Shown here: positions 19,193 to 41,370 of the stretch, piece by piece
How the letters are laid out: every line of letters begins with the position of its first letter
How positions within the stretch are numbered: the stretch's first letter is position 1
DNA from: Antilocapra americana
Taxonomy: Eukaryota > Chordata > Mammalia > Artiodactyla > Antilocapridae
Assembly: GCA_007570785.1 (NCBI GenBank)
Contig: ML661900.1
Span: 6,121,800 to 6,185,799, forward strand
Direction of reading: 5' to 3'
DNA length: 64,000 nucleotides
Position numbers and translations under genes: made by a program
The notes under the pieces: generated by a model
What the model saw: only the letters and a program-made list of their open reading frames with translations
Database searches by the model: none
Told to the model about the DNA's origin: nothing

Positions 19193-19921
19193 CCTCTTGA
19201 AAGTGAAAGAAGAGAGTGAAAAAGCTGGCTTAAAGCTCAACATTCAGAAAACCAAGATCATGGCATCTGGTCCCATCACTGCATGGCAAACAGATGGGGA
19301 AACAGTGTCAGACTTTATTTTTTTGGCCTCCAAAATCACTGCAGATGGTGAGTGCAGCCATAAAATTAAAAGACACTTACTCCTTGGAAGAAAAGTTATG
19401 ACCAACCTAGACAGCATATTGAAAAGCAGAGACATTACTTTGCCAACAAAGGTCCATCTAGTCAAGGCTATGGTTTTTCCAGTAGTCATGTATGGATGTG
19501 AGAGTTGGACTGTGAAGAAAGCTGAGTGCCAAAGAATTGGTGCTTTTGAACTGTGGTGCTGGAGAAGACTCTTGAGAGTCCCTTGGACTGCAAGGAGATC
19601 CAACCAGTCCATCCTAAAGGAGATCAGTCGTGGGTGTTCATTGAAAGAACTGATGTTGAAGCTGAAACTCCAATATTTTGGCCACCTCATGCGAAGAGTT
19701 GACTCATTGGAAAAGACCCTAATGCTGGGAAGGTTTGGGGGCAGGAGGAGAAGGGGACGACAGAGGATGAGATGCTTGGATGGCATCACCGACTCGATGG
19801 ACATGGGTTTGGGTGGACTCCAGAAGTTGGTGATGGACAGGGAAGCCTGGCGTGCTGCGATTCGTGGGGTCGCAAAGAGTCAGACATGACTGAGTGACAG
19901 AACTGAACTGAACTGAACTGA
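19193..19921 (+). mobile_element. BovB LINE 3' end, young, with intact C-terminal frame
   Basis: An uninterrupted 230-codon frame (19197-19889) covers the BovB ORF2 C-terminus ([43 protein letters not shown]). It ends in a GAACTGAACTGAACTGAACT tail. Target duplication ATGGGCGAAAAG / ATGGGTGAAAAG at 19181-19192 and 19922-19933. It is 5'-truncated and has no RT core, so it is not autonomous. Confidence 0.93.
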
Positions 19922-20179
19922 ATGGGTGAAAAGATGATTCTGCAGCATTATTTCTTGTGAGGGGAAATCGGGAAGTATTACTATCAATCCATTCACACGG
20001 GAGAGCATAAACTGTGGTCATTGCTACTGATGCTGCTGGTGTATGGACCACATTGTGAGTTGTAAGACCTCAGAAGTTCCTTGACCCACGCCCCTGGCTG
20101 TGAGGCTCTGGATCTCTGCTCCCCACACCCTCTACCTGGCTCTTAGATGTGCCACCCCACCTTCGGGCGGCCTGCTCAC

Positions 20180-20646
20180 CTGGTCAGCATAGGGCTGCGG
20201 TGGTTGGGGTTGGAGCAGAAGATGTTGTTGGACTTGCGGGTGCTGTCCAGAAACTCACGCACTGACTGGCTGCGGAGCTCCACCAGCGGCCGGGCCTCGT
20301 GCTTGAGGAACCACTGGTGCGCCTCGAAGCACTTGGCGCAGATGAGCTGCTCACACTCGAAGCACCAGTAGTGGGCCAGCTCTTTGCAGCGGGTGCAAAA
20401 CGCCTGCTCATGTGCGATCTGCTGGTACACCGACAGCCGCCGCTGCAGGCTCTCGAAGAAGACGTTGTCCAGGGCCTGCGTGCTGGCTCCTGAGGGCCAG
20501 GGAGCCTGGCAGACAGGGCACTGTGTGCCGGGCTGCTCCAAGCATCCTGAGCACAGCGTGTGCAGACAAGGCAACAGCTTGGGGCACTTAGCTTCTGCCC
20601 GGCAGCCCTGGCAGCGCAAGAACTGGAACTCTTCCTCCATGGCTTG
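20180..20646 (-). CDS. PML: PML coding exon 2 (RING finger, B-box 1, start of B-box 2)
   Basis: The acceptor is a pyrimidine tract ending CCCCAG at 20647-20652 and the donor is GTGAGC just below 20180. The exon encodes the RING beginning EEEFQFLRCQGCRAEAKCPK, then the linker with FFESLQRRLSVYQQI, B-box 1 (CTRC, CFEC, CAKC) and the FLKHE motif with K160. It ends at NIFCSNPNHR, the start of B-box 2, interrupted by the phase-2 exon boundary. Its length is two codons shorter than human exon 2 as I recall it (473 bp), the difference falling at the exon start. There is no stop or frameshift, so it appears functional. Confidence 0.95.
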
Positions 20647-36459: not shown

Positions 36460-39200
36460 ACCTGATTTGGATTGATAGCCATTCAGATTATTTTTTTATG
36501 TTTTGCTATTTCAAACAATCGTGCAGTAATAACCTTTCACATATGCTATTGTGGTTGAAGTTCATCTGTGGGATAAAGTCCTAGAAAGAGAATGGCTCAG
36601 TCAAAGCATTTATAATTTAATATTGTCCCGATGCCTTCTTTAGGGATTATTCTAATTTACACTTCCATCATCAGTAAGTGAAAGTCTGTTTTTCCTCACA
36701 GCCATGCCCACACAATGTGATACTAAAATCTGGAATTTTTTGACAGTCCAGTAAATGAAAAAGCTCATCTCAGTGAAAAAGTAAATTAAAAAGTTCAACT
36801 TTTAAAAAAGTTGTTCAATTGTTTATTGCTTTTTAAGGTTTGGGCTTTCCATCCCAGCAAAAGCACAGGGTTTCTTCTCAGTCCCAGGTAAAAAGCACAG
36901 AATTTACCTTTATAACAGATAATAGGATAAAATGCACTCATTTTTTAATAGTAAAAGATGTTTATCATTTTTCACACTAAGCCACCAGATAAATGATAAT
37001 TGCAAGCCATATGGAGACATGATTAACCTAACACTATAAAATACAGTTTGGGGGGTATACATGCATATGTTTTCATCCACCTAGCCAGTCCGTGTCTTCC
37101 GGTTGGTGCATAAAATTCACCCATTTTAAATGTACTTTGACAAATGGAACACCAGGTAACCACTACCCACCAGAATCAACTTATAGAACGTTTCCATCAA
37201 CTCATGTAGTTCCCTGTATCCCTTCCCATTCAATCTTCAATCTCCCCACCCCCACCCCCAGGCCCAGGTCACCACTGATCTGCTTTCTAATAATGATTAA
37301 ATTTCACGTCTCTAGAATTTCATACAAGTGAAACCATGCCATGTGTATCCTTTAGTGTCTAGCTTCTTTCTGTAGTGTTTTTGAATCATCTATGTTATTA
37401 TGTGTACCAATAGTTTGTTCTATTTTATTGTTAGTAATACTCTGTTGTATGGATAGAGGTACAGTTTACATATTCACCTGTTGATGGACACTTGAGTAGT
37501 TTTCAGTTTTGATTATCGAAGCTTCTCTGGACATCTATCTGGGTTCGAGTCTTTGTGTGGATATGTGTTTTCATTGGTAAATACTAAGGAGGAAAACTTC
37601 TGGTTCTAGAAGCTGCCAAACGAATTCCAGGATGGTTGTGCCAACACTTGGTGTTGTCAGTCATTTCCAGTGGGTCTGCCTGGTGACTTTGAGCCCCTTT
37701 GTGGGTGCTCATTTGGGTATATGTCTTCTTTTGTGAGGTATCTGTCAATTTTTTTTCTCGCTTTAAAATCTGGCTTTATCTTATTGGTATAATGTTCATA
37801 TCAGTTCTAAGAGTTCTTAGTAAATCCTGGATACATGTCTTTTGGCAGGTATTTGAAATATTTTCTCCCAGACTGTAGTTTGGCTTTCTAATTTCTTAAT
37901 GATTTATTTTTAAAAGCAATAGACTTTAATCTTTTTTTTTTAGTATTTTTTTTTAATTTTCTTTACTTTATTGTGTTAGTTTTGTCATACATTGACATGA
38001 ATCCGCCATGGGTATACATATGTTCCCCCTTCAGAACCCCCCTCCCTCCTCCCTCCTGATTCCCTCCCCCTGGGACATCTCAGTGCACCAGCCCTGAGCA
38101 TCAACCCTGGGCTGGCGATTGATTTCACATATGATAATTAACATGTTTCAATGCCATTTTCCCATATCATCCCACCCTTGCCCTCTTCCACAGAGTCCAC
38201 GAGACTGTTCTATACATCTGCGTTTCTTTTGCTGACTCGCATGCAGGGTTCTCGTTATCATCTTTCTAAATTCCATATATATGCATTAGTATTAGACTTT
38301 AATCTTGATGAAGTTAGTCTATAGCTTTTTAAGCATTTGTCTGTTTATTCATATGTTTGTGTCGGGTCTCAGTTGGGACATGACCAAAACACTAGAAAAC
38401 TAGGCACAGTGCCTTAAAGTACTAGCCAAATCTATAAACTTTCAGAAGTACTTTTAGTACTTTTAGGCCTGATCCACTTTGAGTTACTTTTTGTATACGG
38501 TATGAGAGAAAAGGCTGAGATGTTTCCCCTGGCCCCGCCCATGTGGGTATCCAGCACTTCTTGTTGAAAAGGTATATTTTCTCCATTGAATTACCTCAGA
38601 ACTTGAAATTTTTCATGTCTCTTATTTTGTGTTAAGTTGGAATTTTGTAATATGTTTAAGAGCTATTGTGTTTCTTTTTCTGTGAAATATTATTTCATGC
38701 ATTTTTTTTAGTGTTGGTTTCTATTTTTGTTTTGACATCTGGAACTCTTTATACTAGAGGGATTAGTTCTTTTTGATATAACTTGTAAAAATTTTTAACC
38801 CAATTTGTTGTTTGTAGTTTGACTTTGCTTGTGGTATTTTCCCATGAAATTTGACAGGTGTATTTGAAATGATATATATTTTACTTTGTGGCTTTTAAGT
38901 TTTAAGTTATAAGAAAAACTTCCATTCTAAGATGATAAAGGAATTCCATGTACTTCCATTATTTTATTTTTTACATGTAATTGTTTGACAAACCCCTTGG
39001 GATTTAAATGAGCATAAAACACATAGAACCACATTTTTTTCAGTGCTATGTATTTGTTTGTCTTGAGATCGATATCTGGGTTTTCTGTTCTGTTCCATTC
39101 GTCTATGCACTAAGGCCACATGGTTTTAATTATTGAGGCTTCATAAAATGATGAATATCTATAAGATTAATTCTTTTTAATGCTTCTTCAGAAATTCTTC
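36460..39200 (-). mobile_element. Ancient L1 remnant, antisense
   Basis: A long run of antisense L1 3' UTR and ORF2-derived sequence (TTCACCTGTTGATGGACACTT, TTTGGCAGGTATTTGAAATATTTTC, then TCTATGCACTAAGGCCACATGG). It is full of stops and is interrupted by a younger L1 insertion at 37934-38292. Confidence 0.65.
37934..38292 (-). mobile_element. 5'-truncated ruminant L1 with 14-bp TSD, antisense
   Basis: Poly-T at the left (the A-tail of a minus-strand copy), then TTTGTCATACATTGACATGA and CCCCCCTCCCTCCTCCCTCC, the ruminant L1 3' end. It is flanked by perfect duplication TAGACTTTAATCTT at 37920-37933 and 38293-38306, within an older L1. Confidence 0.93.
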
Positions 39201-39204
39201 CTGG

Positions 39205-39335
39205 AAATTTCCTGGCAGTCAATGTTTAATCACGCAGCACTTTCACTGCCGAGGATGTGGATTGAATCCCTGGTCCGAGAACTAAGATTCTAGAAGCCAC
39301 GCAGTGTAGCCAAATTAAAAAAAAAAAATTAATTC
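39205..39335 (+). mobile_element. Degenerate CHR-type SINE
   Basis: TTTAATCACGCAGCACTTTC, then TTGAATCCCTGGTCCGAGAACTAAG and an A-rich tail after GTAGCCAAATT. Diverged and lacking a clear target duplication. Confidence 0.65.
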
Positions 39336-39361
39336 TTCCTGCCTATTCTTGTTGCTGTTTT

Positions 39362-39383
39362 AAAATAAACTTTAGAGCTACCC
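39362..39383 (+). repeat. Target-site duplication, left copy
   Basis: The 22 bases AAAATAAACTTTAGAGCTAC plus CC follow TTTT, an L1 endonuclease TTTT/AA site. The right copy at 40899-40920 has A for G at one position. Confidence 0.92.
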
Positions 39384-40898
39384 GCCCCCATCCTCCCCAC
39401 CGGGCCCTTTGTACGTGCTCGGCGGCGTGCGAGCGCGCCCGGCACGTGACCCCGCCGAACGTGGCATTGTGTTATCACGTGACCCAGGTGCGTACGCGAC
39501 GGAGCGGGGTGTGAAGATGGCGGACGAAGAGGCCTAGCGGGAGAGGTTGAGTCGCGGCGGAGGCGGCTGCGCCGCGGAGCTGCAGCTCCTAGGCGAGCGG
39601 CTCCAGGAGCTGCAGTGGCAGTTGCGGGAGAGCCGGGTGCCGGCAGTGGAGGCGGCCACGGAGTACTGTCAGCAGCTGTGCCAGAGTACATCATGTGAAA
39701 TGCCGGGCTGGATGAAGCACAAGCTGGAATCAAGATTGCCGGGAGAAATATCAGTAGCCTCCTATATACTGATGACATCACCCTAATGGCAGAAAGCGAA
39801 GAGGAACTAAAGAGCTTCTTGTTGAAGGTGAACGAGGAGAGTGAAAAAGCTGGCTTAAAACTCAGCATTCAAAAAATAAAAGATCATGGTATCTGGTCCC
39901 ATCACTTCATGGGAAATAGATGGGGAAACAATAGAAACAGAGACTTTATTTTCTTGGACTCCAAAATCACTGCAGATGGTGACTTCAGCTATGAAATTAA
40001 AAGATGTTGCTCCTTGGAAGAAAAGCTATGACCAACCTAGACAGTATATTAAAAAGCAGAGACTTTACTTTGCTAGCAAAGATCTGTCTAGTCAAAGCTG
40101 TGGTTTTTCCAGTAGTCATGTATGGATGTAAGAGCTGGACCATAAAGAAGGCTGAGTACTGAAGAATTGATACTTTGGAACTGTGCTGTTGGAGGAGTCT
40201 CTTGAGAATTCATTGGGCTGCAAGGAGATCAAACCAGTCAATCCTAAAGGAAATCAATCCTGAATATTCATTGGAAGGACTGATGCTGAAGCTGAGGCTC
40301 CAATACTTTGGGCATGTGATGTGAAGAGCTGACTCATTGGAAAAGACCCTGATGCTGGGAAAGATTGAAGGCAGGAAGAGAAGGGGATGACAGAGAACGA
40401 GATGGTTGAATGGCATCACTGTCTCAGTGGACACAAGTTTGAGCAACCTCTGGAAGACTGTGAAGGACCGGGAAGCCTGACGTGCTGCAGTCCTTGTGGT
40501 CTCTCAACAACAATTTATAGGTCTTTTAAGGGTATAATCAATACATATTTATAAATTACAATGAGGGCAACTTGTTGAAATCTGTTTCTAATGTCCTAAT
40601 ATAACTAAGATCAATTCTTTATCAGAGTTTAAAAAAAAAAACTGCATTTGTGTTGTGTTTGGCCTCTGTATGGTGCAAAGAAGTACCTGAAGTTCATGGG
40701 GAAAAGTAGGTCATCAGTGGTCTTTAAAGCTGCTTTTAGTTGGATATCCCATAAACATTTGAATATGAAACCTCAGTATAGGGATGTCTCATAAACTTCA
40801 CACATGTGAATGCGTATTACTTCAGCTTATATTGCTATTTGAATCTGTCTATTAAGTAATAAAGTTTGTATTTTAGATAGAAAAATAAATAAATAAAT
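39384..40898 (+). pseudogene. Retrocopy of a chimeric mRNA: ZNF292-like exon 1 spliced to BovB, with poly(A) tail
   Basis: The insert begins with a GC-rich leader. At 39517 an ATG opens MADEEA followed by an in-frame TAG (39535-39537), then RERLSRGGGGCAAELQLL through RVPAVEAATEYCQQLCQ, ending at 39684. I recognise this 56-codon block as the first coding exon of ZNF292, a large zinc-finger transcription factor on another chromosome in human. At 39685 the sequence switches to internal BovB (AGTACATCATGTGAAATGCC) running to about 40497, then about 360 bp of other sequence with AATAAA at 40858-40863 and an A-rich tail (40880-40898). Flanking direct repeats at 39362-39383 and 40899-40920 differ at one base of 22. 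Intronless join, tail and TSD show L1-type retroposition of a processed transcript. It is disabled by the stop codon. ZNF292 identity is from memory. Confidence 0.85.
39685..40497 (+). mobile_element. BovB segment carried inside the retrocopy
   Basis: The 3' third of BovB RT-containing ORF2 (GCAGAAAGCGAAGAGGAACT, ATGTATGGATGTAAGAGCTG) to GACCGGGAAGCCTGACGTGC. It has multiple frameshifts and lacks the ACTGA-type BovB tail, consistent with being part of an exon rather than an independent insertion. Confidence 0.9.
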
Positions 40899-40920
40899 AA
40901 AATAAACTTTAGAACTACCC
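40899..40920 (+). repeat. Target-site duplication, right copy
   Basis: AAAATAAACTTTAGAACTAC plus CC directly follows the A-rich tail of the retrocopy and matches 39362-39383 at 21 of 22 bases. Confidence 0.92.
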
Positions 40921-40934
40921 TAGTAATCGTTTAG

Positions 40935-41030
40935 GGGACTTTTGTTAGTGGTCCAGTGGTTAAGACTCTTTGCTCCCAATGCAGGGAACTTGGGTTCCAT
41001 TTATGATTGGGGAACTAAGATCCTGCATGT
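40935..41030 (+). mobile_element. CHR-type SINE fragment
   Basis: GTGGTCCAGTGGTTAAGACTC and GGGGAACTAAGATCCTGCAT mark the tRNA-like head. The element lacks most of its body and tail. Confidence 0.8.
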
Positions 41031-41370
41031 TTTTATGCATTTTGGTTTTTTTCCCTCTTAGTGTTCTCAGAAGTTTTACAGTGTTCATATAGTCTTGAAC
41101 ATTTTTGTTTAAGTTTATTCCCAGGTACTGTATCTTTTCTGATGCTACTGTAAACGGGATCTTTCCTTTCATTATATTATCAGATCAGAGTGCTATTTAC
41201 TGCTCTGTAGGAGTTCTGTACCTTACTAACTTAATTCTTTCCTTACTAACTCTATTTTTATTCATAGTACTTCGTAGTTCTTCATCTTCAATATACAGTC
41301 AGATGTTGACAACGTCACCTCCTCATATCAGTGCATTAAAAGGCTTTCCCTTTTGTAATTGCTTTGGCTA
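41030..41370 (-). mobile_element. L1 ORF2 fragment, antisense
   Basis: The minus-strand translation contains EKIQYLGINLNKNVQDYMN, the conserved motif of L1 ORF2 after the RT core. Short, interrupted and non-functional. Confidence 0.8.

Follow-up and report, generated by a model that had tools for sequence, protein, structure and literature searches.

Architecture of the insert

The window (the whole stretch of 64,000 nucleotides that was analysed) corresponds to C968:6121800-6185799 of the searched assembly (2.44 Gb). An insert lies here between an exon of a stomatin-like gene (PDB match to a stomatin homologue, weak at E 0.0052), which we take to be STOML1, and one of a lysyl oxidase gene (Pfam E 6.8e-23), presumably LOXL1. 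Further to the left in the window is a PML exon (PDB E 2.7e-88), and the window holds repeats that we take to be BovB copies and Bov-tA-like ends, indicating a ruminant source. The insert itself (39384-40880) consists of a CpG-rich leader, a first exon, an internal piece of BovB (an RTE-type LINE) and 376 bp of intron sequence, and is flanked as follows:

39362..39383, + strand: left target-site duplication, with TTTT before it (21/22 identical to the right copy; TTTT/AAAA nick site)
39384..39516, + strand: CpG-rich 5′ leader of ZNF292 (39385-39431 against C1278:58287849-58287803, 97.9% of 47)
39517..39684, + strand: coding part of ZNF292 exon 1, 56 codons with a TAG at codon 7 (from protein search; ends at the donor boundary CAG/)
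39685..40504, + strand: internal BovB piece, sense (97.2% to C1278:58270214-58269397; starts at the acceptor CAG/AGTACATC)
40505..40880, + strand: ZNF292 intron sequence directly after the BovB (97.6% to C1278:58269396-58269023, contiguous with the BovB block)
40858..40863, + strand: AATAAA poly(A) signal (17 nt upstream of the tail; AGTAAA at the matching place in the parent)
40881..40898, + strand: A-rich tail AAAAATAAATAAATAAAT, remnant of a poly(A) tail (absent from the parent, where other sequence including a T-rich run continues)
40899..40920, + strand: right target-site duplication (21/22 identical to the left copy)

The initial annotation had described a 22-bp duplication with 21/22 identical bases at a TTTT/AA site, and an A-rich tail with an AATAAA about 17 bp before it. 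Both are present: the duplication, AAAATAAACTTTAGA(G/A)CTACCC, occupies 39362-39383 and 40899-40920 at a TTTT/AAAA site, which is an L1-type nick site, and the signal at 40858-40863 is separated by 17 nt from the tail that starts at 40881. A pair of 22-mers matching at 21/22 or better was found in 0/60 dinucleotide shuffles of 39200-41100, the five best shuffles reaching 18 each. At the 5′ junction there is a microhomology of 6 nt, as CTACCC, the last six bases of the duplication, also stands just upstream of the copied start in the parent; such 5′ microhomology is frequent in L1 insertions. The duplication, the nick site, the A-rich tail and the microhomology fit L1 retroposition, and judged by these insertion marks the copying was likely performed by L1 rather than by another enzyme.

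The exon had been assigned to ZNF292 by its N-terminus, and the protein search bears this out. The 60 N-terminal residues gave 47 matches at E up to 1, and 47/47 are named ZNF292 (for one of them, a source gives 'hypothetical' and a second source gives ZNF292), the best being the alpaca protein (E 8.2e-22, 91% identity). The predicted 56-codon reading frame with its TAG at codon 7 is also found, starting from an ATG at 39517. Codon 7 encodes E or D in 64/64 fetched proteins with MADEEA, and with a stop at this codon the copy itself is most likely inert. No Pfam domains were found in the exon 1 frame, and a PDB match to exon 1 (E 0.81) was set aside as chance.

Codon 56 is the end of exon 1 in alpaca and human isoforms as well as in the read-through ORFs P0049-P0056. 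After ...CQQLCQ, the alpaca protein (P0002) continues with TEGAGL and the human one (P0061) with ISEVDC. In the ORFs P0049-P0056 the next residues are VRA, consistent with reading on into an intron that begins with GT. Upstream, the translated leader is identical at 35/36 residues to ORF P0056, which runs on into ZNF292 exon 1. In an antisense frame, 78/92 residues are identical to P0169 over residues 63-154, with a break within 3 nt of the exon–BovB junction.

Leader and exon together (39384-39684, 301 bp) have 70% G+C and 36 CpG, giving a CpG observed/expected ratio of 0.99 versus 0.25 for the window, in agreement with the CpG-rich leader first noted. The antisense residues over 39407-39520, a stretch with 18 CpGs in the copy, are 38/38 identical to P0169. 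A CpG island is thus kept in the retroposed leader, which is perhaps unmethylated, or simply young.

A direct join of the exon to internal BovB had been proposed as well, and comparison with other BovB copies in the window places it accordingly: in the two copies long enough to reach the join, homology begins at 39682/39683, and its other end is near 40501. The same two copies continue upstream of this point with TTATTTAACTTATAT...AG or a close variant. Among the best 120 ORFs of the sense search, 100 contain the BovB motif, and in 100/100 of these a Q directly precedes the junction residues. At 40487-40510, close to its 3′ end and ahead of a CAA-type tail, the BovB lacks an estimated 30 or so bases. 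This gap is common to the copy and the parent described below, so the loss is older than the retroposition.

The parental locus in ZNF292

With leader and exon as query, two loci matched among the best candidates scored: the window and C1278:58287550-58287849 (minus strand), on another contig. For comparison, 120 kb of C1278 around ZNF292 were fetched, with the gene on the minus strand. As the parental data are masked over part of the leader, the stretches compared are 39385-39431 and 39553-39684. The latter is identical to C1278:58287681-58287550 (minus) at 126/132 positions, after which the parent continues with gtgagg. The stretch 39384-39684 therefore maps to ZNF292 exon 1 and its 5′ leader, as expected by the initial annotation. 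The remainder of the insert (39685-40880) aligns with C1278:58270214-58269023 as a single colinear block (1164 matches, 28 substitutions in 1192 compared bases, 4 gap columns), so that the last part falls within ZNF292, immediately 3′ of a sense BovB and 17.3 kb past exon 1.

In the parent, exon 1 and the BovB are separated by 17,335 nt that start at CAG/gtgagg and end at ttatttaacttatgtacag/AGTACATC. This stretch is missing from the copy, exact to the base between donor and acceptor: the junction in the copy reads ...CAGCAGCTGTGCCAG/AGTACATCATGTGAAATGCC..., and the parental acceptor is TTATTTAACTTATGTACAG/AGTACATC, with ttatttaacttatgtacag as the end of the intron. Such a junction could also have arisen by template switching of a reverse transcriptase, joining two RNAs that carry ZNF292 exon 1 and the intronic BovB. 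Template switching is known for L1, and since exon 1 ends in CAG and CAG also precedes the BovB piece, 3 nt of homology would be available. However, the join coincides to the base with a donor and an acceptor that belong to one gene and stand in their proper order, and a switching enzyme has no reason to choose these sites. We consider this route very improbable.

Exon 2 (residues 57-108) was not located in the fetched ZNF292 locus, also in a relaxed search. From exon 1 to the BovB, a gene-strand search with residues 57-260 at E up to 10 gave only one chance match (27% identity, E 0.11), and the next confident coding match, to residues 109-135, comes about 30 kb past the BovB. With no match to residues 57 onward at E <0.1 between exon 1 and the BovB, and residues 109-135 some 30 kb beyond it, the BovB is placed in intron 1. 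The 376 bp after the BovB occur in two places in the assembly, the window and ZNF292. Until the parental locus was found, trans-splicing, or splicing into a BovB-holding terminal exon of another gene, could have explained the chimera. But ZNF292 itself contains both BovB and tail, in cis after exon 1 and in sense orientation, and the tail is otherwise found only in the window; this origin now has a very slight chance of being correct. Trans-splicing between two ZNF292 pre-mRNAs gives the same product and is not distinguishable from splicing in cis.

An unspliced, contiguous leader–BovB–tail arrangement, which would have argued against a spliced source, was not found elsewhere: exon part and tail each match the window and the parent among the best candidates scored. 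Nor did the exon map to a gene without a nearby BovB, as ZNF292 has one. The BovB of the copy is about 97% identical to this intronic parent, versus 76–85% for the other BovB matches exceeding 300 bases, in window and ZNF292 locus alike; two short BovB pieces in the ZNF292 locus, of 67 and 37 bases, match at 91% and 86%. These values also bear on a purely genomic origin, by duplication of ZNF292 followed by deletion of the intron, or by insertion of a BovB into an older exon 1 pseudogene. Nothing was found in favour of either. A BovB that entered a pseudogene independently is at odds with 97% identity to the ZNF292 one when others (stretches >300 bases) show 76–85%, a deletion would need both end points to fall on splice sites, and the target duplication, the TTTT/AAAA site and the A-rich tail bracket the whole unit. 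A genomic origin is the least probable of the alternatives, with hardly any weight left to it. Searches for the host-like pieces in viral and prokaryotic contigs, phages (tail only) and plasmids gave no match.

The parental BovB is 5′-truncated and begins 72 nt upstream of the acceptor. All acceptor scores given here come from a rough weight matrix. By this matrix, the used acceptor ranks 1/105 among the AGs at gene-strand 19400-20604 (the BovB and about 300 nt upstream), and 79/1284 among those from exon 1 to the cleavage site, which counts against its use. The homologous site in the window BovB copies ranks 3/97 in one copy (A) and, as AAG, 14/68 in the other (B), by the same rough matrix. 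Three sense BovB acceptors with CAG/AGTA were found in the 120-kb locus, the used one having the highest rough score (2.28).

At its 3′ end, the copied block ends in the parent with ...TTTTAGATAG, followed by ACTTAATAGGAAAAGTTTTTTTCCCTCTTCTG, which is T-rich, like the sequence that normally follows a cleavage site. Where the copy has AATAAA, the parent has AGTAAA, and this present state of the parent counts against the reading proposed below. The intronic poly(A) site of the parent may have become weaker after copying, or AATAAA may have arisen in the copy by chance.

A probable retroposed, prematurely terminated mRNA

We are highly confident that the insert consists of ZNF292 exon 1, BovB and 376 further bases, joined base-exactly at donor and acceptor, and that it is likely an L1 copy of a spliced, prematurely polyadenylated mRNA. 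The initial annotation had interpreted the insert in the same way (exon 1 spliced to an intronic BovB, a nearby poly(A) site, and copying by L1), and at the DNA level the parental locus supports this. The proposed series of events begins with the 5′-truncated sense BovB after exon 1, which carries the acceptor TTATTTAACTTATGTACAG/AGTACATC in the parental sequence. Judging from the exact junction, the pre-mRNA would then have been spliced from the donor CAG/GTGAGG into this BovB acceptor instead of exon 2. Cleavage and polyadenylation presumably followed about 1.19 kb further on, after A(A/G)TAAA and before the T-rich run, where signal and end are present in the sequence. The cDNA was then likely primed from the poly(A) tail at a TTTT/AAAA nick and inserted by L1 proteins, leaving the marks described above. 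Finally, the copy would have drifted to its present 28 substitutions per 1192 bases relative to the parent. At mammalian substitution rates of 1.2-2.2e-9 per year, a Jukes–Cantor (JC) divergence of 2.39% corresponds to a very rough age of about 5–10 My (5.4–9.9).

Because the copy had to be inherited, splicing and polyadenylation of its source RNA would have taken place in cells of the germline or the early embryo. Read from its sequence, this RNA would encode 89 residues, of which 56 derive from ZNF292 and 33 from BovB, the latter read in a different frame from the reverse-transcriptase match. As the stop lies in the last exon, the RNA would likely escape nonsense-mediated decay. Protein searches were performed in sense and antisense (8000 candidates scored each), and under a strict split test the chimeric ORF was found in 0 of the best 120 of 7819 sense matches and 0 of the best 120 of 7848 antisense matches, which counts against the proposed source RNA. 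Under a loose test, 38 matches had seemed to hold both parts; none was left by the stricter one. A more far-reaching proposal would be that living ruminants still use the exon 1–BovB isoform as a standing switch expressed in the germline. The intronic BovB acceptor and the poly(A) site near it would then channel some ZNF292 transcription into a truncated 89-residue product and thereby lower full-length ZNF292, and the intact CpG-island leader of the copy would serve as promoter in the interval from STOML1 to LOXL1. We regard this as doubtful.

Relation to known chimeric retrocopies

The closest systems in mechanism are MAST2-SVA_F1 and STK40-pt_SVA_D6, which up to the first retroposition would work in the same manner. 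SVA_F1 in human arose from the MAST2 first exon spliced onto an SVA and pt_SVA_D6 in chimpanzee from the STK40 first exon, giving families of 84 and 94 elements, respectively (PMC6139936). There, as in the insert described here, a GC-rich host first exon is cut at its 3′ end and joined to an acceptor of the element, and the chimera is inserted as a retrocopy (PMC6139936). Unlike these two, there is no family here: exon part and tail each match the parent and a single copy among the best candidates scored, and an SVA_F1-like amplified family was rejected on this ground. Furthermore, the element is a BovB instead of an SVA, and the transcript ends in the host intron, 376 bp beyond the BovB, while SVA RNA ends at the element's own 3′ end, although 3′ transductions are also known.

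With ordinary, L1-made processed retrocopies, the insert shares the removal of an intron at splice sites, the A-rich tail, the target duplication and the L1-type site. It differs in its source, an early-terminating isoform whose last exon is BovB and intron sequence. The unit holds these instead of exon 2 onward, in keeping with the earlier statement that it is not a standard processed pseudogene. That it is not a BovB insertion either, as had also been stated, follows from the position of the BovB inside the unit, with the tail coming after non-BovB sequence. An insertion made by BovB's own machinery ends at the BovB 3′ end and has no poly(A) tail, whereas this insert continues past that end and has an A-rich tail. 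Another retrocopy of a chimeric transcript is PIPSL, a retroposed PIP5K1A-PSMD4 readthrough RNA; there, two genes are joined, here one gene and its intronic transposable element.

The insert also resembles transposable-element exonization in livestock genes, as the BovB would supply the splice acceptor. Few exonization events are reported for livestock and poultry in the accessible part of a review of the subject, and that part includes no retroposed record of one (PMC10362595). In titles and abstract openings of the open-access literature, we found no report of a ZNF292–BovB retrocopy.

RNA events seldom leave a mark in DNA, and here a chimeric mRNA has likely been preserved as a retrocopy. 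Because the same assembly still contains the donor, the acceptor and the poly(A) region of the parent, both the transposon-driven splice and the premature termination can be dated and put to a direct test. Capture of host first exons by transposable elements, as in the SVA families of apes, would thereby extend to BovB in a likely ruminant. This suggests that a screen of retrocopies could bring to light past exonization in genes that are expressed in the germline. Since donor, acceptor and variant poly(A) signal are still in ZNF292, the isoform itself can be sought now.

Two further sense BovBs in the locus keep CAG/AGTA, one at C1278:58249017 (L009, minus; rough score 2.13) and one at C1278:58279757 (L006, minus; BovB near gene-strand 10250; rough score 0.46), so that more than one BovB could be trapped. 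A short cercopithecid ZNF292 protein (P0062) continues after ...CQQLCQ with GLTVTQAGMQ, which looks Alu-derived to us. With exon 1 joined at the same codon to this sequence, ZNF292 intron 1 may trap transposable-element exons repeatedly.
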